Source: Thiorhodovibrio litoralis (GTDB taxonomy: Bacteria > Pseudomonadota > Gammaproteobacteria > Chromatiales > Chromatiaceae). Taken from it: 64,000 bases of DNA. Positions 6,202 to 31,161 of this stretch are shown one piece after another; the stretch's first letter is position 1, and each line of letters opens with the position of its first letter. A program made the translations under genes and the position numbers. The DNA lies in NCBI RefSeq assembly GCF_033954455.1, contig NZ_CP121473.1, positions 496,001 to 560,000 on the forward strand. The letters run 5' to 3'. Below the pieces are notes generated by a model, which saw only the letters and a list, made by a program, of their open reading frames with translations, was not told the DNA's origin and did not search any database.

Positions 6202-6537
6202 TCAGCTTTCCCAGAGATTTGGAGCCATTTCCTGAACGGGTTGGTAACCGCCGAGCGAGATACGCTCCAGGTCCAGTCCACGAATGATCACTTCTCCTTG
6301 ATGGCGGCCGACGCCTTCTTCGCTGAATTCAAATTGGTAGGTTCGTCTTTGTTTCAAACCATCGGCTTGCCACACCAGAGTGACGCGGCGCAATGCGACA
6401 GTCTGGTCGAGAAACTGAACCCCATGCTTTTGGCACGTCCGACGCGAAATGCCCAGTGCCAACTCGCGCGCGCGCAGCGAGTTCATCCAGAGCGCAACCG
6501 CCAGTAAAAGCAACAAAATCAGAAACAGATGTGTCAC
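6202..6537 (-). CDS. DUF3301 membrane-anchored protein
   Basis: A 111-residue protein with an N-terminal transmembrane segment (residues 3-18, very Leu-rich) followed by SLRARELALG, a Cys-containing GVQFLDQTVALRRV segment, and YQFEFSEEG. This is the pattern of the DUF3301 family of gammaproteobacteria, whose function is unknown. It is convergent with sspB (49 bp apart) and followed upstream on the same strand by a small lipoprotein gene, so those two may be cotranscribed. Confidence 0.8.
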   Translation of the reverse strand: MTHLFLILLLLLAVALWMNSLRARELALGISRRTCQKHGVQFLDQTVALRRVTLVWQADGLKQRRTYQFEFSEEGVGRHQGEVIIRGLDLERISLGGYQPVQEMAPNLWES

Positions 6538-6592
6538 TTGGTTGCGAGACGTAGCGAAACTGGGGGGCAGGGGCAGTTGTCTGTCAGCATGT

Positions 6593-7012
6593 CTAGTCGG
6601 TTTTGAACTTCGGCAGGCCGGAAGTCAGCCACCAGTTCGATGTCTCCTTGTCATAGAGCCAACGCTGGCGATCAGTGAGTGATTCCAGTCGCTGGCGATC
6701 ACGCAGTACATACTCAATCCGGACGATTTGCTCTGCCTTATCCTCCTCGATGATGACCGGCGAGCGCACCACTTCGTAGCCGGTCACGCGGACATTCTCG
6801 AGAAGGGGTGTTAGCTGTTCAGGACGTTCTTTAGGCTCGACAAATTGCAGGGCCGCATCATGATAGCCCCAGCGAATAGCCTGCCGATATCCACTGGTTG
6901 CGCTTTCAAGCACCCGATTCTTGCGTTCCTCTTTGACTTGCTTGCAACCAGCAAGGGGCAACAGCAAAGTCAAGCACAACAGCAGTAGCAGTTTTCGATT
7001 CGAACGTGGCAT
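6593..7012 (-). CDS. Small hypothetical lipoprotein
   Basis: A 139-residue protein. The ATG at 7012 is preferred over one 18 bases upstream because it leaves a compact signal: Arg/Lys n-region, Leu-rich core, then the lipobox PLAGC with Cys23. The mature part is charged and probably an alpha/beta fold ending in a Trp-rich stretch (DKETSNWWLTSGLP). I do not recognise a named family, though similar short lipoproteins occur in other gammaproteobacteria. It lies 55 bp upstream of the DUF3301 gene on the same strand. Confidence 0.7.
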   Translation of the reverse strand: MPRSNRKLLLLLCLTLLLPLAGCKQVKEERKNRVLESATSGYRQAIRWGYHDAALQFVEPKERPEQLTPLLENVRVTGYEVVRSPVIIEEDKAEQIVRIEYVLRDRQRLESLTDRQRWLYDKETSNWWLTSGLPKFKTD

Positions 7013-7242
7013 GAAGATACCTTCTCGCAAGGGAAGTGTTGTTAGAGAGAAGTTTTGTCAGACAGTGTCGCGGTGATTTTCTGGTCTTATGGCGTCCATG
7101 TTGGCGGCGAATGCAAACTCAGTGTCTTATGGGAGAATACATTCTTGCAATTTTCTAAGCATTCTTGCATGGAACCCAAACCGCGAACAGTCGTAAAGAG
7201 TCTTTGCGGGCTTCGCCTGGCCATTTGCCTGGAGCGCCGCTG

Positions 7243-7266
7243 ATGAGCCCGGAGATGAGCCCGGAG
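7243..7266 (+). repeat. 12-bp tandem duplication of a start codon
   Basis: ATGAGCCCGGAG occurs twice in succession, and a third partial copy (ATGAGC) follows at 7267. Each unit supplies an in-frame ATG, so the encoded N-terminus reads Met-Ser-Pro-Glu twice. Confidence 0.85.
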
Positions 7267-8487
7267 ATGAGCGAGCCGCGCGAGAACAAACAGGGTGCCG
7301 CAGCTGAGCCACTGGTGACCGTCAATGTCAGCGGTGCCCATGTGACCTTGCTGGGTACAGCCCACGTTTCACGTGCGAGCGTCGATAAGGTCAGGGAACT
7401 CCTTCAGACGCCGGGAGAGTTCACGGCTGTTGCGGTTGAGCTTTGTCAGAGCCGTTACCAGGCGTTGATGGACCCGGACGCGCTCGCGCAGCTCGACCTC
7501 TTCGCCGTCATCCGCGAGAAACGGGCCCACATGGTTGCCGCGAATCTCGCGCTGTCCGCCTATCAGCAGCGCCTAGCCGAGCAGATCGGTGTTGAGCCGG
7601 GGGCAGAACAGCGTGAAGCGATCATTCAAGCGCAGCGTTTGGGATTGCCAGTCCTGTTGATTGACCGCGAAATCGGGGTCACGCTAAAGCGCACCGCGGC
7701 TAATTTGGGCTTTTTCAAACGGCTCAACTTGTTCGTTGGTCTTTTGGCCGGGCTGCTGTCACGCGATCAGGTGACTGAAGACGACATCGAGACTCTGAAG
7801 CAGGGGGATGTGCTTGAAACAGCATTCGGTGAGTTTGCCGAGAACCGCCAGGATTTGTTCACGCCCCTGATTAGCGAAAGGGATCAGTTCATGGCGGCGC
7901 GACTGCGCGAGGAGATTGGCGAGCATGGGTATCCTCGGGTTCTTGCTGTCATCGGCGCTGGACATTCCAAGGGCGTCGCTGAAGCGCTTGAGCATCAGTC
8001 GCGGCCCCCGGCTGAGCTCATCGCTGAATTGCAACGGCTGCCGACTTCCAGCAGGTTCTGGCGCATCTTCCCCTGGTTGGTCGTTGCGCTGATACTTGGG
8101 CTCTTCGGCTATGGATTCACCCAAGGGCCAGATGTCGGCTGGGAGGTTATTAGCGACTGGGTTGTCATCAACGGCGGACTGTCAGCATTAGGTGCCGCTC
8201 TGGCAGGGGCGCATCCGCTGACGGTGCTTGGAGCATTTTGCGCGGCGCCCCTGACCTCGCTCAATCCGACCATCGGTGCGGGCATGGTGACTGCGGCTAT
8301 CGAGCTTTTCCTGCGCCGGCCGCGGGTCGGGGACTTCCGTCGGCTCCGCGACGATGTAGCGCGCTGGTCGGGCTGGTGGCGCAACCGTGTAGCCAGGGTT
8401 CTGCTGGTTTTTGTCTTTAGTACCATCGGCTCGGCGGTTGGCACTTATGTCGCCGGCTTCAATATCGTTGCGCGGTTGATTGCTTGA
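7243..8487 (+). CDS. TraB/PrgY-family membrane protein
   Basis: A 414-residue protein of the TraB family, named for enterococcal pheromone shutdown proteins. Its bacterial role is unclear and a protease-like fold has been suggested. The N-terminal domain shows the family motif LLGTAHVSRASVDKV and later VAVELC, then AVIGAGHSKGV, all near the expected spacing. The C-terminal third carries about four membrane helices (from FPWLVVALILGL onward). Three in-frame ATGs (7243, 7255, 7267) lie in a 12-bp tandem repeat. I chose the first because GGAG lies 9 bases upstream. It is monocistronic by position. Confidence 0.9.
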   Translation: MSPEMSPEMSEPRENKQGAAAEPLVTVNVSGAHVTLLGTAHVSRASVDKVRELLQTPGEFTAVAVELCQSRYQALMDPDALAQLDLFAVIREKRAHMVAANLALSAYQQRLAEQIGVEPGAEQREAIIQAQRLGLPVLLIDREIGVTLKRTAANLGFFKRLNLFVGLLAGLLSRDQVTEDDIETLKQGDVLETAFGEFAENRQDLFTPLISERDQFMAARLREEIGEHGYPRVLAVIGAGHSKGVAEALEHQSRPPAELIAELQRLPTSSRFWRIFPWLVVALILGLFGYGFTQGPDVGWEVISDWVVINGGLSALGAALAGAHPLTVLGAFCAAPLTSLNPTIGAGMVTAAIELFLRRPRVGDFRRLRDDVARWSGWWRNRVARVLLVFVFSTIGSAVGTYVAGFNIVARLIA

Positions 8488-17164: not shown

Positions 17165-20100
17165 ATGAAAGACGATCAAGTTCGCATTTTCGTATCCTCT
17201 CCCACGGATGTGGATCACGAGCGCGCGATCGTAAAAGACGTGATCGAGCGACTTGGCCAGGAATATCTGCCCTACTTCCCGCTGCGCGCGATTTTGTGGG
17301 AAGAAGAAGCCCTGACCGCGGACCGGACCTTCCAGGCGGGTCTGACTCAGCCATCGCAATGCCAGATTGTCTTGGTAATCCTGTGGACGCGTGTCGGCTC
17401 ACCCTTGCCGGATGATCCCTATCGTGGCATGACCGGCACCGAGTGGGAGTTCGTGAGCGCGGTGACGCATTCCAATACGCACGGACTTCCGGAAGTTCTG
17501 GTCTACAAGAAATCCACGCCCAAGCTGGTCGACATCACGGACGCCGAGACAGCGCAGGAAGCCATCGTCGACCGGCGCCGGCTTGAGGACTTCTTCCGCG
17601 CGCATTTCTTTCACCAAGACAATACCTTCAAACGCGCTTTTCGCACCTTCGACAGCGATGCCCAGTTTCGCGAACTGGTCGAGGTGCAGTTGCGCAAACT
17701 GCTCAATCGGCGCGTCAGCGCGGAGCGCCGCGCGGGCGCTGGGGAGCTGCAATGGCGCGGCAGTCCTTTCCGCGCCGGCGAGGCATTCGAGTCGAGCGAC
17801 GAGCGGGTGTTCACCGGGCGCGAGGTCGAGCTGCGAGAGCTGAGCGAGCGTCTGCAGGCGCGTGCCGAAGCCGGGCGTGCGCTCATGCTGCTCAGCGGGC
17901 CGAGCGGCTGCGGCAAGACTTCCTTGCTGCGCGCCGGGCTGGTGCCGCGCCTCGCGCGTCCGTTCCGCTTTGAGCACATCGCCGCGGTGCGTTCTTGTCT
18001 GTTCAGTCCGCCGAGCATGCCTGAAGATCCGCTGGCAGCCTTGGCGGCCGCGTTGTGCGCGGAGACTTGTCTTGGCGATCCGCTGCGCGGATTCGGGCTC
18101 GATGCTGCGGCGCTGACCGCCTTGCTGACGCGCGATCCTGCAATCGCGGCACGCCAGCTCATCGCGGCGTTGAAAGAGTCGGCTCGCATCCAGATGCTCG
18201 AAGGGCAGGTGCGTTTGGCGGTGATTGTCGATCCGCTCGATGCGATCTTCGCCAGCGCGGGTGATGGGGGCGCGCACCAAGAGAGGACCGAGCTGCCTGC
18301 CCAGGTGCCGAACGAGGTGCCGAACGAAGGCGAAAAAACCCTGGAGACCTTTGCCCGCGCATTGGCGGCCTTGGCCCGTAGCGGCGAGATTTGGGTCGTG
18401 GCGGCGATGCGCAGTGATGCCGTGCGCCATCTGCCGAAGCTACCACAGCTGGCGGCGATGCTCGATGACGGCGGCTGGCAGCAGCTTGAGCCGCTGCCGA
18501 GCGCGCGCATCCGCCAGATTATCGAGATTCCGGCACGCATTGCCGGGATTGAGCTCGAGTCGCAAGTCAGCGGCGCCGGTCGAGGTCTGGTCGAGCTCAT
18601 CGAGGCTGAGGCCGGGCATCTGCGTCAGTGGGCGCCGCCGCTGCAAGCGCTGCTGCACTCGGCCTATCTGAGCGCCCGTGCCGCGGCCCCGGAACGGGAT
18701 CAGGCCACGCACCTGAGCGTGGATCATTGGCGCGAACGGGGCGGACTTGCCGGTCAGATGCTGGCGCATGCCGAGGCGATGTGGCGTGACAGCGTCGATG
18801 CACCCGCGCGCGCCGCCTTGCCTAAATTGTGTCGCGCGCTCATTGCGCTCGGCAATGACGGCCAGCCCCAGCCACGCTTGGGCGATCTGGACGTTCTCGA
18901 GCAGGATGCGCAGACGCGGCGGCTGCTCGATGCCATGATCGCCGCGCGCCTGCTGACGACCGAGGCAGAGTGCGATCCGAGTCTGACCGCAAGCTGCGAA
19001 CACCCAAACTATTCGCTGCTGCACGCGCTGACTGGCCTGTTCCGTCATGCACAGGGGCGAATCGTGCGCGACCGACCTCAAGTCGGCGCGCCATCGCCTG
19101 ATGAAGCCAGTCCGGGCTTGAGCGCAGAGGCTGCTGCGGCAGCGCCGCAGGCTTCGGACACGCTCGATTGGAGCCGCTTCGTGGGCGTGGTCAGTCTCGC
19201 GCATCCGGTTCTGCTCACGCGCTGGGAGCCCATGCGCGATTGGCTGAGCGACCCGGACAATCGCGCTCTGCTGCACCTGCGCGAGCAACTGAGCCGGCAG
19301 GCGCGGTTATGGAAGCGCACCGGGTGCAATCGAGAGTATCTGTTCGGGGAGGCCGGCTTCGCGGCAGCGCAGCGGTTTGCCGACGCCTTTCCCGACGAGC
19401 TAGAGCCCCTTGAGCGCGAATTCCTGCATCAAAACGGGGCTTACCTGGCCTTTGTGCGTCGGCGCAATCGCATGGTGCGCGCGTTCGGCGTGCTGCTGGT
19501 CCTGCTGCTGGTCACCGCCAGCACCGCGGCCTGGATTGCCCAGCGCAAGTCCGAGAATGCCCGCTTGGCGATGCATCAGGTGCAGCTCAAGGAGGCTGAC
19601 TTGCAAAGTCGTGGCGGCAACACGCCCCAGGCAGTCGACAAAGCGCTCGCGGCGGGCGTAGATTTGCCGGGCGAGGCGGTGCGTACCCTCAGCGACGCCT
19701 TCAGTCGCAATCGGCTGATGGCGATGATCGCCGCGCGTTCGCCGTCGCTCGATCGGCCCGTGCGGCCCGCTTTCAATGCCATGGGCGATCGGGTTGCCAC
19801 GCTGCAGACAGGGCAGGGGGCAGGCCAATGGCGGCTCAACGACGGGCGCTTTATCCCCGCCGACCCGCCGGTGTTGAGTGATGGGCGCCTCGGCATTCAC
19901 TCCCTCGTTATGGCACTCGCAACCGACGAGGTCTTTGGCATCGCAGCGGACGGCGTCTATCGGCTGCCGGCCTTTGCCGGTGCCGCCCCCGATTACCCTT
20001 GTGGCGCGCAGGCGGGTGCAGCGCTTGCGCTCGACGCCGGGCGGCAGCGCCTGGCGCTGGCGGTTCCAGGGGATGGCGGGCATCAAGGAGTCTGCGTGCT

Positions 20101-22204
20101 GGGTTTGACAGAGCCCGGCCGAGTGCTGTTCGCGCACAGCTTTGCCGAGCAGGAGTTGCGCGGTCTGAGCTTTTCCGCGGATGGACGCTTCCTTCTGACA
20201 GCCTCGAGCATCGGACGCACCCATTTGATTGACTTGGACGCGCCGAAGGGCGAGCAGCCAATCCGTCTCTCGCTTCCACCTGAGGGACCGGTCGGGCGAC
20301 CCTTCAATCGCGCTGTCTTCGATCCCGCAGGCGAGCGCATCGGGATTGCCGCCGCCGACGAGCAAGTGCGATTGTTCGACCGCGACGGTCGCTTGATTGC
20401 CACACTCGGTAGCGCCATCATCGACGCTCAGCGAGTCCAGATCCACAACAGTGCCGTGCGCGATCTCGCTTTTTCCCCGGACGGAGCTTACCTGGTGGCC
20501 GTGGACGACGAGGGGCAGGTGGTGCGCTGGTCACTGACCGATCCGCCCCAAGCGGTCGTCCTCGGTCAACACGAGCTCAGTATTGTCAGCGTAGCCGTGG
20601 GTGACCCAATGTCCGGCCGGGCGTTGGGGACGGACGCTGCTGGCGAGGCGAAGAGAGTTCTTGTGCTAACGGCATCGCTCGACGGAACGGCGCGCCTCTG
20701 GACTCTGGCAACCGGTAAGCCGCTGGCAGTCTTCGGGCACGATGAGGCGGTTAGCTGGGCTGATTTCGTAGCGGATTCAGAGCGCGTGCTGAGTTTTTCG
20801 GTGCGCGACGGTTCTTTGCGGTTGTGGAGCGTGCTGCCGAGATCGCGGCTCGCCTTCGAGCTCAAACATCCTGATCCAACAAATCATGTGTGGCATCTCG
20901 ACATGACCTCCGTGCCGCGAGAGCTGCTGGGCTCGAGTGGACCTGACACCGCTGCGGCGGAAAAGTCCCCCCTGTGGCTCGCAACGGCGGGCTACGATGG
21001 TGAAGTCCGCGTCTGGCGATATGACCGCGACGGTCAGCCACCACGATTGAGCTACAGTTTCGCGCAACAGGATGCTGCCGCAGCTGAAGGGACGGATACG
21101 GACATCCGGCCCGTGCGCCGCGTGCGCTTTTCGCCTTCCGGTCGGCGACTTGCGGCGGCGCGTTCCGATGGCAGCGCGCGTCTGCATGACCTCCTGACTG
21201 GCCGCTCCTGTCGCCTGCAGGTCGCCGCGCCAGACGCGACTGCGACGGAAAGTCCTGGAGCCGATCAGGTCTTTGACGTGCGGTTCGCGCCAGATGAGAG
21301 CTGGCTGTTGGCGGCCTCCGATAATCCAAGCCAGCCGCTGCGCTTGTTCGACGCACTGAGCTGTGAGCCCATCACCGGCATCGATGTGCTCGAACAGGCG
21401 ACTGCTGCGACTGAGGCGATCGCCGTCAGGCAGGTCGGCGACGTCACTCTGGTCGCCACGGGAGATCGCGCTGGGCGGGTGCGCTTGCTGCGCGCTGCCG
21501 GGGCTGATGACTGGCAGGAGCAATGCGCCATTGATGCCAAAGTCGGCTCCATCAGCGATGTGGCAATCGCTCCGGACGGCGCTGCTTTAGCCATTGCTGG
21601 CGAGGCAAAACAACTGGCAATCCTCAGACTGAATGGCCCCGAGTGTGGTCAGCTTGACCTTTCCGAGGGACACAGTGACCGGCTATACAGTGTCGCTTTC
21701 TCGCCGGAGGGTGATCGGATTTTGACTGCGTCTCTGGATAAAACCGCCAGGCTATGGACGCGCACCGGTCAGCCGCTGGCCGTGCTGGTTGGTCATCAAG
21801 ACCGTATTTACCATGCCACCTTCAGTCCTGGGGATGGCCGCTGGCTGCTGACCGCCTCCCGCGACGGTACGCTGCGCCTATGGCGCGCGCCGCCAGCCGA
21901 CTATCGCCCGGAACGCGCCGAAGTGTTGTCGGATTTTCTGCCCTTGCCGGCGAACGCGGGCGGAGCGGCCTTCGCGACTTTCAGCCCTGATGGTCAATAT
22001 GTTGCAGGTGCCTACTGGGACAACGCTGCACTGCTTTGGCGCCTGTGGCGCGAAGATCCGTTGCCGGATGACAAGCTGGCTGCGCAATGGGGGGCGGATA
22101 GGGCGCGGCTCGCCCTGCTCAAGGAGGCCTACCGTTTTCGCCGTGACAATGATGTCAGCGCGGCCAAGCAAGATTCACCCGCGCAATTGCGCGCAACGCA
22201 ATGA
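17165..22204 (+). CDS. DUF4062-like / STAND NTPase / transmembrane / WD40 signalling protein
   Basis: A 1679-residue multidomain protein. Residues 6-96 (RIFVSSPTDVDHER, then ILWEEEAL, VILWTRVGSPL and GTEWEF) resemble the DUF4062 / TIR-like N-terminal module found on bacterial STAND proteins. A novel-STAND NTPase follows, opening with FTGREVELREL, with Walker A GPSGCGKT at 245-252 and a Walker B-like VIVDPLDA at 353-360. A single transmembrane helix lies at about 771-793, followed by a predicted beta-propeller region (about 880-1650) with many WD40-like blades (FSPEGDRILTASLDKTARLW and similar). STAND proteins act as ligand-triggered switches, and several bacterial ones serve in antiphage defence. 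That role is inference here. The membrane helix would put propeller and NTPase on opposite sides. Confidence 0.85.
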   Translation: MKDDQVRIFVSSPTDVDHERAIVKDVIERLGQEYLPYFPLRAILWEEEALTADRTFQAGLTQPSQCQIVLVILWTRVGSPLPDDPYRGMTGTEWEFVSAVTHSNTHGLPEVLVYKKSTPKLVDITDAETAQEAIVDRRRLEDFFRAHFFHQDNTFKRAFRTFDSDAQFRELVEVQLRKLLNRRVSAERRAGAGELQWRGSPFRAGEAFESSDERVFTGREVELRELSERLQARAEAGRALMLLSGPSGCGKTSLLRAGLVPRLARPFRFEHIAAVRSCLFSPPSMPEDPLAALAAALCAETCLGDPLRGFGLDAAALTALLTRDPAIAARQLIAALKESARIQMLEGQVRLAVIVDPLDAIFASAGDGGAHQERTELPAQVPNEVPNEGEKTLETFARALAALARSGEIWVVAAMRSDAVRHLPKLPQLAAMLDDGGWQQLEPLPSARIRQIIEIPARIAGIELESQVSGAGRGLVELIEAEAGHLRQWAPPLQALLHSAYLSARAAAPERDQATHLSVDHWRERGGLAGQMLAHAEAMWRDSVDAPARAALPKLCRALIALGNDGQPQPRLGDLDVLEQDAQTRRLLDAMIAARLLTTEAECDPSLTASCEHPNYSLLHALTGLFRHAQGRIVRDRPQVGAPSPDEASPGLSAEAAAAAPQASDTLDWSRFVGVVSLAHPVLLTRWEPMRDWLSDPDNRALLHLREQLSRQARLWKRTGCNREYLFGEAGFAAAQRFADAFPDELEPLEREFLHQNGAYLAFVRRRNRMVRAFGVLLVLLLVTASTAAWIAQRKSENARLAMHQVQLKEADLQSRGGNTPQAVDKALAAGVDLPGEAVRTLSDAFSRNRLMAMIAARSPSLDRPVRPAFNAMGDRVATLQTGQGAGQWRLNDGRFIPADPPVLSDGRLGIHSLVMALATDEVFGIAADGVYRLPAFAGAAPDYPCGAQAGAALALDAGRQRLALAVPGDGGHQGVCVLGLTEPGRVLFAHSFAEQELRGLSFSADGRFLLTASSIGRTHLIDLDAPKGEQPIRLSLPPEGPVGRPFNRAVFDPAGERIGIAAADEQVRLFDRDGRLIATLGSAIIDAQRVQIHNSAVRDLAFSPDGAYLVAVDDEGQVVRWSLTDPPQAVVLGQHELSIVSVAVGDPMSGRALGTDAAGEAKRVLVLTASLDGTARLWTLATGKPLAVFGHDEAVSWADFVADSERVLSFSVRDGSLRLWSVLPRSRLAFELKHPDPTNHVWHLDMTSVPRELLGSSGPDTAAAEKSPLWLATAGYDGEVRVWRYDRDGQPPRLSYSFAQQDAAAAEGTDTDIRPVRRVRFSPSGRRLAAARSDGSARLHDLLTGRSCRLQVAAPDATATESPGADQVFDVRFAPDESWLLAASDNPSQPLRLFDALSCEPITGIDVLEQATAATEAIAVRQVGDVTLVATGDRAGRVRLLRAAGADDWQEQCAIDAKVGSISDVAIAPDGAALAIAGEAKQLAILRLNGPECGQLDLSEGHSDRLYSVAFSPEGDRILTASLDKTARLWTRTGQPLAVLVGHQDRIYHATFSPGDGRWLLTASRDGTLRLWRAPPADYRPERAEVLSDFLPLPANAGGAAFATFSPDGQYVAGAYWDNAALLWRLWREDPLPDDKLAAQWGADRARLALLKEAYRFRRDNDVSAAKQDSPAQLRATQ

Positions 22205-26276: not shown

Positions 26277-27767
26277 ATGCGCGAAGCCTTGATTGGCAAC
26301 CGATGGCGGCTTACAGGACGCGGGGAGGGAGCTTTCCCGCGGGATGGCTCGCGGCCGGCGACTGGGCCTGGACTGCAGCCGGCCGGGGATCGCGTCGCAG
26401 CGCAAAGTCGCCTGGCTTGGGCTCGGGCAGCAGCGTACCGGGTGATTCCTAACCTGCTCGAGGTGCGTGAAGGGCGCCTGGATCTGGCCGTTGTCGGAGA
26501 GCGCGAGACCTGTCTGGCGCTGCTGCACCGTATCGGGCGCATGATCGCCCGTCCGTTCGACGCGCCCCTGCCGCTGATCCTGTCCTTGTCCGGTGATCAA
26601 TCGGGCGCTGCTGAGGATGCGCGCTTTGCCGTGTTTGAATCCCTGTTCAGGCAGCAAGAGCATGCCGCTCCGGGACGCCGCTTGCTGTTGTTTCTGGCTC
26701 TGCCGAGCGCGGAAGTGACACTGCAGCGCATTGAGGAAGTAACCAAAAGGCTCGCCGGCACCAGCGGCTTGATGGTGCTGCCTGCCCCCCCGAGCGCCGA
26801 ACGCCAGGATGCCATCGCCACCCAGCTGCTGGCAGCGGGCTGGCTGCCGCATTTCGTTGCCCTGTCGGGCAAGTGGCGGGAGCAGGCGGCGGGGCCCGGC
26901 GGGCTCGATAGCGAGCGGTTGGGGCGGATCATCCATGAGTTGTTTCTTGAGAATGCCTGGACTCGCGGCGAACGCCGCGGGGCGGCGCCGGCATTGCAAC
27001 CATGGCATCGTCTGGATGAGACCTACCGGATCGCCAACCGCTCGCAGGCGGAGCATATCGCGGTCAAGCTCGCCTGTGGCGGATTGATCGCGACCCAGGA
27101 ACCGGTCATAGCCGATGGCAGCCAGGCGCCGCTATGGTCGATGCCAGAGTTCATCGAGCCGCTGTCGTGTATGGAACACGATCGTTGGTCAAGCGACCGC
27201 CTGCTCGATGGCTGGGTGTATGCGCCAAAGCGCGACAATGCCGCGCGCCACCACCCGGATCTGATCCCTTACGATGATCTGTCCGAAGACATCCGCGAGA
27301 AGGATCGGGTTGCCGTGGCAACCATTCCTTTCATTTTGCAGCTCGGCGGCTTCGGCTGGCGGCCGCTGGCGCAGGTGCGCCTAGTCGGTTCCTGGCCCGA
27401 TCCCAGCGATCACGCTAGTGTAAAAAGGCGCTGGCGGCGCGATCTGGCACGGGCAGCACGCGAGCGCGCGCCAGCCCTGCTCGAGTTTCTGCTCGACCCG
27501 CGCGAGCCCCGGCAGTGCCATGTTGGCATCATGCTGGCCAAGTTTGGCTTTCCGCTGTCGCTGTGGTTGGCTGAACGGCACCCGGTCGCGTCCCTGGCAG
27601 CGGATGCGCCGAGCCGTGCTGCGCTGCTGCACTGTTTGGCGCTGTGCCGTCAGGTGGTCTGGGACGACGACCTGCCGCTCGCGCCGGCAACGCCCTCGGC
27701 ACTGGAAGCCATGGTGGTGGAGCGCGGTGGCCTGCGCATCGAGCGACACCTGGCCGGGCCTGCATGA
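26277..27767 (+). CDS. RyR-domain protein heading an MCE-type ABC operon
   Basis: A 496-residue cytoplasmic-looking protein. Residues about 290-350 (FIEPLSCMEHDRWSSDRLLDGW, then VYAPKRDNAARHHPDLIPYDDL and EKDRVAVATIP) match the RyR domain, a module first seen in animal ryanodine receptors and also present in bacteria, often next to TrkA-N-like domains. The N-terminal half (RLDLAVVGERETCLALLHRIGRM) could be a degenerate nucleotide-binding domain, but I see no clean GxGxxG. The first ~45 residues are Arg/Gly/Pro-rich, so the true start may lie downstream of 26277. Its stop overlaps the permease start (ATGA), tying it to the lipid transporter. A sensing role is inference. Confidence 0.75.
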   Translation: MREALIGNRWRLTGRGEGAFPRDGSRPATGPGLQPAGDRVAAQSRLAWARAAAYRVIPNLLEVREGRLDLAVVGERETCLALLHRIGRMIARPFDAPLPLILSLSGDQSGAAEDARFAVFESLFRQQEHAAPGRRLLLFLALPSAEVTLQRIEEVTKRLAGTSGLMVLPAPPSAERQDAIATQLLAAGWLPHFVALSGKWREQAAGPGGLDSERLGRIIHELFLENAWTRGERRGAAPALQPWHRLDETYRIANRSQAEHIAVKLACGGLIATQEPVIADGSQAPLWSMPEFIEPLSCMEHDRWSSDRLLDGWVYAPKRDNAARHHPDLIPYDDLSEDIREKDRVAVATIPFILQLGGFGWRPLAQVRLVGSWPDPSDHASVKRRWRRDLARAARERAPALLEFLLDPREPRQCHVGIMLAKFGFPLSLWLAERHPVASLAADAPSRAALLHCLALCRQVVWDDDLPLAPATPSALEAMVVERGGLRIERHLAGPA

Positions 27768-28654
27768 GTTCCCGCTCCGCCTTGGCCCTCACCGCACTGG
27801 GCCGGAGTGAAGCGCCCGGATTGCGCGGTCGCGCGCTCAGCCTGGTCGATACGCTCGGCGCCATCGCGCTCTCACCGGTCGAGCTGATCGGCATGGCGGT
27901 GATTCTGCTCGCGCGCATGGGCGAGTTCATCGCGCTTGCCCCCTTCGCGCGCCACCGCTTTGCGTTTCATGCGCTCATTTTTGGCCGCGATCTCGCGGAT
28001 TTGCTCATCGGCCCCGCCTTGCGCGTGGTGGCCCTGTCCGCGGTCCTGGGCGTGACCGTGGCGGTGGTGCTGGAGAATTATGCCACCGGGCTGCTGTCGC
28101 AGACTGGTACCGCCAATCTGGTCATTATTGCCACGGTGCAGCAGATTCCGCCCTTCGTCGCCAGTGGCGTGCTGGCCGCGCGCGGCGCGCTGCCGCTGTC
28201 GATCCGTCTGGCGGAAATGGTCGATCGCGGCCAGATCGACTCCATGGCCATCATGGGTGTCGACCTGGTCATGCTGCACGCGGTGCCGCGTTGCCTGGCG
28301 GTGAGTCTGGCCTCGGTGGTGCATGCCCTGCTGGCAATGGTGGTTTTCGGGCTGACTACCGGGCTGACGCTCTCGCTGATGGGTATCGTGCCGATCGAAA
28401 CGTTTTTTGCCGCGCTCAGGATGCTGCCGCTGTTCGCCAAGGTTGGACTGATCGGGCTGCAATTGCTCACTGCCTCCCTGCTGGTGGTGGCGGTCGCCGC
28501 GGTGCAGGGCATTCAGGGCAGTGGCGAGGAGCGCGTCGATCTGGCGCAGGTCAGCGTGGTTTGCATCCTCAAGGCGGCCACTGTGGTGCTGGTGGTTAAC
28601 GTGTCCTTCGCGCTCTCGCGCATGCCAGAGCTGCCGGTGTTGGTATGGCGGTGA
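27764..28654 (+). CDS. MlaE-type ABC transporter permease
   Basis: A 296-residue membrane protein of the MlaE family, the permease of MCE-dependent lipid transport systems that move phospholipids between inner and outer membranes. After a soluble N-terminal stretch come MGEFIALAPFARHRFAFHA, LIGPALRVVALSAVLGVTVAVV, GLLSQTGTANLVIIATVQQIPPF and the family-typical EMVDRGQIDSMAIMGVDLVMLHAVPR, then two further helices. It starts at the ATGA overlap with the RyR-domain gene, and its end overlaps the ATPase gene by 10 bases. A longer frame upstream exists but lies inside the RyR gene. Confidence 0.87.
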   Translation: MSSRSALALTALGRSEAPGLRGRALSLVDTLGAIALSPVELIGMAVILLARMGEFIALAPFARHRFAFHALIFGRDLADLLIGPALRVVALSAVLGVTVAVVLENYATGLLSQTGTANLVIIATVQQIPPFVASGVLAARGALPLSIRLAEMVDRGQIDSMAIMGVDLVMLHAVPRCLAVSLASVVHALLAMVVFGLTTGLTLSLMGIVPIETFFAALRMLPLFAKVGLIGLQLLTASLLVVAVAAVQGIQGSGEERVDLAQVSVVCILKAATVVLVVNVSFALSRMPELPVLVWR

Positions 28655-29373
28655 GCCAGGCAGGGCGCGGAATGGAGTCCGAATCCGCTAGCGGCCTCAG
28701 CGTCGTGGTCAAGGGCCTGGTGGTGCGCCGCGGCTCGCGGCGGGTGCTGGACGGACTGTCGTTTGAGCTCGGTGCCGATGGATTGTTGCTGGTCACAGGC
28801 CCCGCAGGCTGTGGCAAAAGCACCCTTCTGCAGGCGTTGGCCGGGGTGCTGAGCGCCGATGCGGGCTCGATTCGCTTTGGCGGGCGCGCTGCAACCGACG
28901 CCCTCGCGGCGGGGCAGATTGGCGCGGTGTTCCAGCGCGATTCGCTGCTGCCCGAATTGACGGTGCTTGAGAATCTGTTGCTGCCGCTGATGGTCGGGCG
29001 GGCGTTGTCGCGCCGCGTGGCGATGATTCGCGCCCAGGTGCTGTTGGCGCAGTTCGGTCTGGTCGACATCATGCACGCCTGGCCCGGCCGCCTGTCGGAC
29101 GCACTGCGCCGGCGCGCATTGCTGGCGCGGGTGATGGCGGTGCAGCCGCGCCTGCTGCTGCTCGATGATATTCTGGCGGGTCTGGATGCCGCTGGCCGGG
29201 CATTGATCGCGCGTCTGCTCTCCCCGCCAACCGGGCGGGTGGCGAGTATCGTCGCCACCACCAGCCGCCCGGATGATTTTGCACGAGATGCCAGCGCGAT
29301 GCTGGTGCTGCCGGAGGGCAGCACAACCCTGTACGATGAAAACCACGTCAAGCGTGCGGGGCCATCAAGATGA
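28645..29373 (+). CDS. MlaF-type ABC transporter ATPase
   Basis: A 242-residue nucleotide-binding subunit. Walker A is GPAGCGKST, the Q-loop region reads GAVFQRDSLLPELTVLENLLLPL, and Walker B is LLLLDDI. The ABC signature is unusual: LSDALRRRALLAR in place of the standard LSGGxxRRxxLAR. The Walker B catalytic residue is Asp-Ile rather than Asp-Glu, since the sequence reads LLLLDDILAGLD; the D-loop is present. These departures could lower or abolish ATP hydrolysis. The start overlaps the permease by 10 bases. Confidence 0.87.
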   Translation: MAVSQAGRGMESESASGLSVVVKGLVVRRGSRRVLDGLSFELGADGLLLVTGPAGCGKSTLLQALAGVLSADAGSIRFGGRAATDALAAGQIGAVFQRDSLLPELTVLENLLLPLMVGRALSRRVAMIRAQVLLAQFGLVDIMHAWPGRLSDALRRRALLARVMAVQPRLLLLDDILAGLDAAGRALIARLLSPPTGRVASIVATTSRPDDFARDASAMLVLPEGSTTLYDENHVKRAGPSR

Positions 29374-29485
29374 CGCATGAGCAACACAGGCGCCGAGTCA
29401 GATCAGGCCTCTTCTGGTCGGGCCGAAATCGGAGCGCGCAGCCAATGCGGGCTGCAGTTGACAGAATCCATCGGGAGAGCACAGC

Positions 29486-30460
29486 TTGCGTCATAACACG
29501 CTGACCTTGCAGAATCGTGCGGTGGGCGCGGTCGTGGCACTGCTCGCCATCTGGGGAGCCGTCACTCTGATCGGCACGATCCGCGAACAACATGCTGGCA
29601 ACGGATACTTCACCCTGACAACGGACGTGATGGGGGTGCAGGCTGGCAGCATTGTCACGCTGAATGGCTTTGAGATCGGGCAGGTCAACGCGGTTGCGCT
29701 GGAGTCAGCGGGCGAACAGGCTCAGAATGCCGCCAGCCTGGTGTTTCGGGTCGATTTTCAGATTGTTACGCCGGTGGTGTTCCCGGCGCAAACCACTTAT
29801 CTGAGTATCGAGGAGGTCAATCCCGTCGCCCCCGCGCGCCTGGTCATCAAGCAGCTGCCGGCGGCCCAGCCGGAGGATGCCGAGGGCGTCGTCGAGCTGG
29901 GGCAATCATCGGCGAAGATAGTTTATGCCTGTCCGACCCCGCGCCCGATCGTCGACGGGCTGCTCGGACCAGGCGCCTGCATCCCCACCCTGGCGGTCGA
30001 GGAAGATATGCGCCCTGGTCTAAGCGGGCTGATCTCGGCTGCGACCGCGGCACTCATCACCCTGGATCAAACCATTGGCGAGTTTGCGCAGCTCGGCCAG
30101 GAGATTCGCGGCAATAACGCCCAGCTCGCGAAGATGCTGAGCGATGATCCCGACAATCCTGGCAATCTGTATCAGCTGCCGGCAGCACTTGAGGACGCGG
30201 CCACGCGCATGGCGGATGTCACCGAGGGGCTGCATCGCGATGTGGTTGAGAGGATCGATCGCATGGTAACGCCCGAGACCATCGCTTCGTTGGAGCGCGC
30301 GACCGCGCAACTCGAAGAACTCATTGCCACCACCGGCCATGGTAGCCAGGAGACGCTCGAGAACCTGGCCGCGATCACGCGCAGTCTCAATCGGATCACC
30401 TGGGAGCTGGAACGCGATCCGATCGGCTTCCTGCGCGGTCCAAGCGGAGGGACACGATGA
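29486..30460 (+). CDS. MCE-domain (MlaD-like) periplasmic lipid-binding protein
   Basis: A 324-residue protein starting at a TTG with GGGAG about 10 bases upstream. One N-terminal anchor helix (AVGAVVALLAIWGAVTLIG) precedes a single MCE domain (about 38-115: YFTLTTDVMGVQAGSIVTLNGFEIGQVNAVAL, given in parts, the standard opening). A long helical C-terminal region follows, with heptad-like EFAQLGQEIRGNNAQLAKML and LERATAQLEELIATT. MCE proteins form hexameric rings that shuttle lipids. It sits 112 bp after the ATPase, the only real gap in the operon, and overlaps the next gene (ATGA). Confidence 0.88.
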   Translation: MRHNTLTLQNRAVGAVVALLAIWGAVTLIGTIREQHAGNGYFTLTTDVMGVQAGSIVTLNGFEIGQVNAVALESAGEQAQNAASLVFRVDFQIVTPVVFPAQTTYLSIEEVNPVAPARLVIKQLPAAQPEDAEGVVELGQSSAKIVYACPTPRPIVDGLLGPGACIPTLAVEEDMRPGLSGLISAATAALITLDQTIGEFAQLGQEIRGNNAQLAKMLSDDPDNPGNLYQLPAALEDAATRMADVTEGLHRDVVERIDRMVTPETIASLERATAQLEELIATTGHGSQETLENLAAITRSLNRITWELERDPIGFLRGPSGGTR

Positions 30461-31161
30461 CGATGTCGTTGTTGCAAGAGAACTGCTGTTCCAGGCTGGG
30501 CCAAGGACGCGCTGAACCCCGGTGTTGTTTGTGGCCAACCGCTGTCTTGGGGCGCCTCACGGCGGTTCTGACGTTGGTCCTGATGGTGGCGAGCCTGCTT
30601 GGCGGCTGCGCCTTTCGGGCGGCTCCACCGGCGCTGATGTACCGCTTAAGTATTGCCTCCGAGCCTGCAGGATCGCCGCCACCGGTGACAGGCAACGCGG
30701 AGCTGCTGCCGCTGCGCTCGAATCGCCCTCAGGGCGGTTCGCTAGGGATTCTGATCGCGCAGGTCGGCGAGGTGGTGCGGGTGGAGGAATTCACTGCCGG
30801 GCGCTGGGAAGAATCGCCGGAAACCGTGATCGAGCGCGCCCTCACAGAGAGATTCAGCCGCTCGGGCGAGTCGGCGGTGGCCACCCGCCCGCGCCTGCGC
30901 CCCTCGCTTGATCAGTTCGAGTTGGTGGAGCCCGTCGCAGGCGACGGCGCCCATGCCGCGGTTACGCTGAGCTTCCAGCTGCTGTCGCCGCGCGACCGTC
31001 TGGTATTGGCAACCGGCGAAATCCATGAGCGCGAGCCGCTGTCAGCCGAGTCCCTGACTGCGGGGGAGGCCCAACTCGATGCCATTGTGCTCGCATTCAA
31101 CCGCGCCAGCTCGCGCGCCGTGGCGCGCTTTGCTGAAGCCTTATCGCGAACCTTAAGGTGA
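30457..31161 (+). CDS. ABC-type transport auxiliary lipoprotein (PqiC-like)
   Basis: A 234-residue lipoprotein. The signal core AVLTLVLMVASLLGGC puts the lipidated Cys at residue 51 if the ATG at 30457 is used. That is a long n-region, so a TTG at 30529 is a possible alternative. The mature domain (MYRLSIA, then LGILIAQVGEVVRVEEFTAGRWEE) has the layout of the ABC-type auxiliary lipoprotein component / PqiC family, which accompanies MCE systems at the outer membrane. It is the last gene of the operon and starts with an ATGA overlap. Confidence 0.8.
   Translation: MTMSLLQENCCSRLGQGRAEPRCCLWPTAVLGRLTAVLTLVLMVASLLGGCAFRAAPPALMYRLSIASEPAGSPPPVTGNAELLPLRSNRPQGGSLGILIAQVGEVVRVEEFTAGRWEESPETVIERALTERFSRSGESAVATRPRLRPSLDQFELVEPVAGDGAHAAVTLSFQLLSPRDRLVLATGEIHEREPLSAESLTAGEAQLDAIVLAFNRASSRAVARFAEALSRTLR

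Follow-up and report, generated by a model that had tools for sequence, protein, structure and literature searches.

The window, a 64,000-nucleotide stretch of the Thiorhodovibrio litoralis genome (contig NZ_CP121473.1, positions 496,001 to 560,000), carries an operon at 26277-31161 that joins a RyR-domain protein to the genes of an MCE/Mla-type transporter. An original prediction, made from the sequence letters and their open reading frames, had described five genes in the order RyR, permease, ATPase, MCE, and lipoprotein, and we find the same order and coordinates. The genes and their functional parts are as follows.

26277..27767, plus strand: gene of the RyR/RCK-like protein, 496 amino acids, first in the operon and without a transmembrane segment (PF02026 at 53.8 bits; AlphaFold model; scan for transmembrane-like segments)
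26382..26876, plus strand: Rossmann-like domain, residues ~36-200 (alignment A3; DSSP of the model)
26895..27101, plus strand: degenerate first RyR-like repeat, residues ~207-275 (match to the RyR Repeat12 structure; below Pfam detection)
27138..27344, plus strand: canonical RyR domain, residues 288-356 (PF02026 match)
27354..27746, plus strand: C-terminal alpha/beta domain, residues ~360-490 (DSSP of the model)
27764..27767, plus strand: ATGA stop/start overlap from the RyR gene to the permease (read from the sequence; likewise in loci L035 and L036)
27764..28654, plus strand: divergent MlaE-type permease, 296 amino acids, without a STAS domain (PF02405 at 52.0 bits, the sole family matched)
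28645..29373, plus strand: MlaF-type ATP-binding cassette (ABC) ATPase, 242 amino acids, without a long C-terminal extension (ABC_tran at 87.9 bits)
28798..28824, plus strand: Walker A motif GPAGCGKST, intact
29164..29169, plus strand: Walker B D174, followed by D175 where the catalytic glutamate is expected
29263..29265, plus strand: Ser207 at the switch histidine position
29486..30460, plus strand: MCE protein, 324 amino acids, TTG start, with an N-terminal transmembrane segment, one MCE domain, and a long helical tail (MlaD at 22.6 bits)
30457..31161, plus strand: PqiC-like lipoprotein (ABC_trans_aux) with lipobox LLGGC (PF03886, weak)

The RyR domain proposed for the first gene product lies well above threshold (PF02026, residues 288-356, E value 2.3e-14, 53.8 bits against a gathering score of 27.4), and on these scores we rejected a chance or marginal match. 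The permease also exceeds its cutoff (PF02405, 52.0 against 22.5 bits). The MCE protein falls slightly short for PF02470 (22.6 against 25.1 bits; family member at L043, 27.7), as does the lipoprotein for PF03886 (17.6 against 26 bits; L043 homolog, 50.0), for which the lipobox is visible in the window protein. The sequence confirms that the RyR stop codon overlaps the permease start codon by ATGA, and the overlaps between RyR and permease (4 bases), permease and ATPase (10), and MCE and lipoprotein (4) are the same in both other genomes of the genus. The downstream genes had all been described as overlapping, by 10 and 4 bases, which holds for these two junctions; at the ATPase/MCE junction the genes are instead 112 bases apart (206 and 12 in the congeners). 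A profile scan of the operon proteins found neither a STAS protein nor MlaC, in agreement with what had been read from the sequence. Purifying selection is seen in each of the five genes, with nonsynonymous-to-synonymous rate ratios (dN/dS) of ~0.1-0.3 relative to congeners and Rhabdochromatium; relative to congeners, the RyR gene and the ATPase are both at ~0.2.

The pairing of the RyR protein with this permease is real and conserved and is no local accident. RyR-protein homologs occur in 32 of 116 genomes and 17 of 61 genera of the GTDB family Chromatiaceae. A profile search of 195 Chromatiaceae genomes gave 60 near-full-length RyR proteins, and a profile specific to the permease gave 60 strong matches in the same set of 195 (160-400 bits; the next matches, to ordinary MlaE, reach at most 131). 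Both genes are present in 59 genomes, each is found alone in one, and neither is found in 134 (Fisher, 7e-48). Among the 59 genomes, the two genes lie within 260 bases of each other in 19, 1.8-3.5 kb apart in 3, 31-52 kb apart in 5, and on different contigs in 32, where some contig breaks may conceal proximity. Because most of these pairs are not neighbors in the assembly, the association is independent of adjacency. At the unlinked loci examined, the permease, ATPase, MCE, and lipoprotein genes remain clustered, except at L143, where the permease alone was recognized. One Chromatiaceae genome (L154) has the rearranged order ATPase-MCE-RyR-permease and retains the RyR/permease overlap. Homologs adjoining MlaE genes elsewhere, as had been anticipated, were found, together with the co-occurrence of the two genes when unlinked.

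In a scan covering 85,000 genomes of named species, the RyR-protein matches fell mainly in Chromatiaceae purple sulfur bacteria (Thiocapsa, Thiocystis, Thiorhodococcus, Marichromatium, Halochromatium, Lamprocystis, Lamprobacter, Thiodictyon, Thiohalocapsa, Thiobaca, Imhoffiella, Rhabdochromatium, and others). The same scan found the full five-gene operon in Roseospira visakhapatnamensis (L093, Alphaproteobacteria), and a second Roseospira-family genome (G980, L241) has it too; a few distant RyR proteins were recovered without MCE genes. The family divides into subtype A, with a shorter RyR protein (the window genus, Rhabdochromatium, and Roseospira), and subtype B, with a longer one (the rest), and permease identity between the window and subtype B is only 21-23%. 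PF02026 is rare in other Pseudomonadota (7 of 397 genomes), and no MlaE gene lies beside those seven RyR genes within 1.5-kb flanks or in the wider stretches viewed for two of them (L243 and L244). The other distant relatives likewise have no MlaE gene beside them, and no RyR-MCE pair was found outside Chromatiaceae and the Roseospira lineage in the flanks viewed. We therefore rejected both a pairing confined to the window genus, given the family-wide co-occurrence, and a generic RyR-MlaE association across Pseudomonadota, given the absence of MlaE from the flanks viewed. Our literature search, which reached few subscription papers, found no description of a RyR-MCE pairing, in line with the original prediction, and as far as that literature shows, the pairing is undescribed.

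With a single RyR gene and three MlaE genes in its 5.47-Mb, one-contig genome, T. litoralis allows a direct comparison with its other MCE operons. One (L150) is an mlaFEDCB operon with a separate STAS protein MlaB and with MlaC; in the other (L151), STAS is fused to the N terminus of the MlaE permease. STAS is missing only from the RyR operon. Like the Mla system of Escherichia coli (MlaFEDB and MlaC), the RyR operon encodes an MlaE-type permease, an MlaF-type ATPase, and a single-MCE-domain protein. It differs from Mla in lacking MlaB and MlaC, in adding a PqiC-like lipoprotein and the RyR protein, and in its ATPase, which is without the catalytic glutamate, the switch histidine, and the long MlaF-type C-terminal extension. 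The Mla-Pqi chimeric (Mpc) system of Brucella abortus (PMC12436622) likewise combines permease, ATPase, an MCE protein with a long helical tail, and a PqiC-like lipoprotein, for which the window has a candidate, in one operon without MlaC. The Mpc permease, however, has STAS fused at its N terminus, whereas in the RyR operon a distinct RyR/RCK protein is encoded just upstream of the permease and is translationally coupled to it; the L151 system of T. litoralis resembles Mpc more closely than the RyR operon does.

The operon ATPases have lost residues that canonical MlaF keeps. In all 43 ATPase rows from these operons (~32 distinct genomes), the Walker B glutamate and the switch histidine are both absent, whereas all 22 ordinary MlaF proteins compared (20 from the same family and the two paralogs in the window genome) keep both. 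The glutamate is replaced by Gly in subtype B and by Asp in subtype A, and the histidine by Asn, Ser, or Thr. Walker A, the Q-loop, and the D-loop are mostly retained, and the Walker B aspartate is kept. A missing catalytic glutamate is a hallmark of a degenerate nucleotide site (PMC7544095). The C terminus differs as well: no residues follow the QGTPDEI column in the window ATPase, compared with 49 in the canonical MlaF of L150, and in E. coli MlaF a C-terminal extension participates in the interaction with MlaB (PMC7367683). The transporter had been called complete; permease, ATPase, MCE protein, and lipoprotein are indeed present, but completeness is doubtful because the ATPase lacks both residues, and with them lost the system may not be an ordinary ATP-driven transporter. 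Decay of the ATPase was rejected for the family on the uniformity of the substitutions over 43 rows and a dN/dS of ~0.2, with one truly decaying copy as an exception. This copy, in genome G079 (L155, 1-3205), consists of permease and ATPase fragments without a RyR gene; the ATPase has Asn-Gly at Walker B and, being incomplete, lacks Walker A and the Q-loop. The genome is 3.0 Mb, against 6-8 Mb in genus mates, and the system seems to be decaying there.

We compared structure predictions of the RyR proteins with solved structures. The window protein was modeled with a predicted local distance difference test score (pLDDT) of 81.5 and a predicted template modeling score (pTM) of 0.84, and its best solved relatives are RyR Repeat12 domains (6uhi, Z score 15.1, residues 53-365, 161 aligned; RyR3 with AMP-PCP, Z score 14). 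The match over residues 53-365 indicates that the window protein has two RyR repeats, the first of them degenerate. The subtype B protein of L048 (pLDDT 90.9, pTM 0.91) resembles, over residues 4-368, the RCK gating rings of CASTOR (Z score 14.9, 271 residues) and DMI1, with further matches to TrkH/TrkA (13.1), GsuK with ADP (12.6), and TrkA with ATPgammaS (11.9). Of the two Rossmann-like domains of subtype B, alignment A3 and the model show a single one in the window protein, which corresponds to the second RCK-like domain of those longer relatives. PF02026 is matched by all 19 members of alignment A1. In RyR3 Repeat12, Trp880 stacks on the adenine, and Lys884 and Arg895 touch the phosphates (PMC12627627). 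W304, R308, and R319 of the window protein align with these three residues without gaps and are invariant in the 30 aligned proteins of A3 and also in A1, which locates a predicted ligand site.

The protein is thus like animal RyR Repeat12 in its tandem repeats and conserved adenine and phosphate contacts, and unlike animal RyR in being free-standing, in its degenerate first repeat, and in having no channel. With RCK gating rings (TrkA of TrkH, CASTOR/DMI1, and GsuK) it shares a predicted tandem Rossmann fold in subtype B (Z scores 12-15), and like TrkA it is predicted to be soluble, suggesting a role as a regulatory subunit. Unlike them, it would have an MCE ABC permease as its partner in place of an ion channel, and it has added RyR repeats. 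Bacterial TrkA_N-RyR proteins, which are homologous by profile, line up their Rossmann domains, degenerate repeat, and RyR domain in the order seen here; they differ in keeping N-terminal transmembrane-like segments, seen in the distant relatives at L138, L139, L152, and L153, and in adjoining TIR and other conflict-type genes and not MCE genes. The family looks to be derived from such channel-like RCK-RyR proteins and presumably shed their membrane part; subtype A would in addition have shed the first Rossmann domain.

The surroundings of some distant RyR genes were also viewed. In a gammaproteobacterium (G428; L152, 3196-6736), a TrkA_N-RyR protein with a transmembrane-like segment adjoins a protein that carries both a TIR and a peptidoglycan-binding domain, possibly a nucleotide-signal conflict system. 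Patatin-like genes with GGGVRG and GTSTG motifs follow RyR genes in two other Pseudomonadota genomes (L234, 2-907; L236, 33-1271), and at L243 (3909-10545) the RyR gene (6266-8467) is flanked on each side by a gene with caspase-like motifs (e.g., YALLVGVSNY).

On balance, we consider it probable, by a modest degree, that the RyR protein is a nucleotide-sensing gating subunit that replaces MlaB on a hydrolysis-impaired MCE conduit. MlaB is needed for the assembly and activity of MlaFE (PMC5016091), which makes its replacement by another cytoplasmic partner plausible. The suggestion in the original prediction, with the RyR protein as a cytoplasmic regulator in the place of MlaB, gains support from the STAS domains in both other MCE operons of the genome and from the co-occurrence counts (59 with both genes, 1 and 1 with either alone, 134 with neither). 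The permease, an MCE ring with a helical needle, and the outer membrane PqiC-like lipoprotein would form an envelope lipid bridge from one operon, and the MlaF relative would probably bind nucleotide with impaired hydrolysis. The RyR protein would be a dedicated soluble gating subunit descended from channel-resembling membrane RCK-RyR proteins, without their membrane part but with Rossmann domains of the gating-ring type and the tandem RyR cleft still in place. An adenine nucleotide, or a dinucleotide related to it, is the probable ligand sensed in the cleft, and a clamshell movement, passed to the ATPase or permease through direct binding, would open or close the lipid route, much as TrkA acts on TrkH and MlaB on MlaFE assembly.

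How MCE transporters are controlled is an open question, for which MlaB has until now supplied the described cytoplasmic partner. The RyR protein would add a second candidate, unrelated to MlaB; its ligand site is predicted, homologous structures have drug and nucleotide bound, and the ATPase of its transporter does not look capable of normal hydrolysis, so that whether the system is a pump or a gate becomes directly testable in an MCE system. Among MCE transport systems the operon is a new form, whose candidate regulatory subunit is itself of a new kind; a specific function can be proposed for a bacterial RyR domain, and a channel-type sensor seems to have been reused on a lipid transporter.

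Several observations weigh against a nucleotide-sensing gate. In the RCK-like domains, the dinucleotide glycine motifs appear degenerate. A TrkA_N Pfam match is absent in all 19 members of A1, which made fold comparison necessary. The canonical repeat is the second in the window protein, while the RyR3 adenine stacks on the first. Linked codeletion accounts for part of the coincident losses of RyR and permease. Loss of the catalytic glutamate, as read from the sequence, is no proof of zero ATP hydrolysis, and subtype A has Asp there. A rival reading of the RyR protein is an MlaB-like assembly or stability factor, in which transport is still driven by ATP through an alternative catalytic arrangement and nucleotide sensing is vestigial. 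The MlaB requirement cited above, the lack of STAS in this operon alone among the MCE operons of the genome, and the retained Walker A, Q-loop, and Walker B aspartate all fit such a factor. We consider it unlikely nevertheless, as the catalytic glutamate and switch histidine are both replaced in every operon, the nucleotide-contact residues of RyR are invariant, and the operon ATPases are without the long MlaF-type tail.

A role in an immunity or cell death circuit, with the MCE transporter as a membrane-disturbing effector, is suggested by the RCK-RyR relatives, which appear to have such a role: one distant relative is beside a TIR protein, and others are beside caspase-like and patatin-like genes, judged by visible motifs. 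Stable inheritance, purifying selection, and near-universal presence in many phototroph genera are unlike patchy defense islands, however, and the outer membrane lipoprotein and MCE bridge look housekeeping-like, so we hold this role to be improbable. The genes might also be neighbors merely through common descent in one bacterial family and act separately. Although no RyR-MCE pair was found beyond the family and the Roseospira lineage, and the genes are nonadjacent in the assembly for most genomes sampled, both are retained when unlinked in all but two genomes, the operon occurs in Alphaproteobacteria, and the rearranged order is still coupled; common descent alone therefore seems to us very improbable. 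A nucleotide-sensing gating subunit remains the reading we prefer.

The near restriction of the RyR gene to phototrophs suggests a tie to the photosynthetic lifestyle. PF00124 (reaction center L/M) is present in 76 of the 195 Chromatiaceae genomes, and 57 of the 60 RyR carriers have pufLM; 19 phototrophs have no RyR gene, and both are absent from 116 genomes. R. visakhapatnamensis has pufLM as well. The carriers in the family without detected pufLM are G047, G100 (incomplete), and G177, and no Photo_RC match was found in the fragmented assembly of G980, which has the full operon. Given G980, the link to phototrophy is strong, not strict, and use of the RyR gene as a strict phototroph marker does not hold in view of these four genomes and the 19 RyR-less phototrophs. 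When the changes in RyR and permease were traced on a pufLM tree of 73 phototrophs, 11 of the 12 inferred fell on a branch common to both genes, a coincidence due in part to linked deletion or incomplete assemblies. A tentative and rather doubtful extension of the gating reading is that the MCE conduit is nucleotide gated and independent of hydrolysis, with all ATPase sites degenerate and its opening set by a gating-ring/RyR subunit from an ion-channel-like lineage. Phototrophic purple bacteria might thereby control lipid flow between the inner membrane (perhaps the intracytoplasmic photosynthetic membrane) and the outer membrane by adenine-nucleotide or redox state.

Some minor observations were made along the way. 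One congener has two pufLM copies ~15.5 kb apart with identical profile scores (G028, C1, 828031-829689 and 843533-845191), and G022 has a second pufM on another contig. Upstream of the operon, at 17165-22204 of the window, lies the gene of a 1679-residue protein that has a P-loop and WD40-like repeats and seems to be a STAND-type signaling protein.

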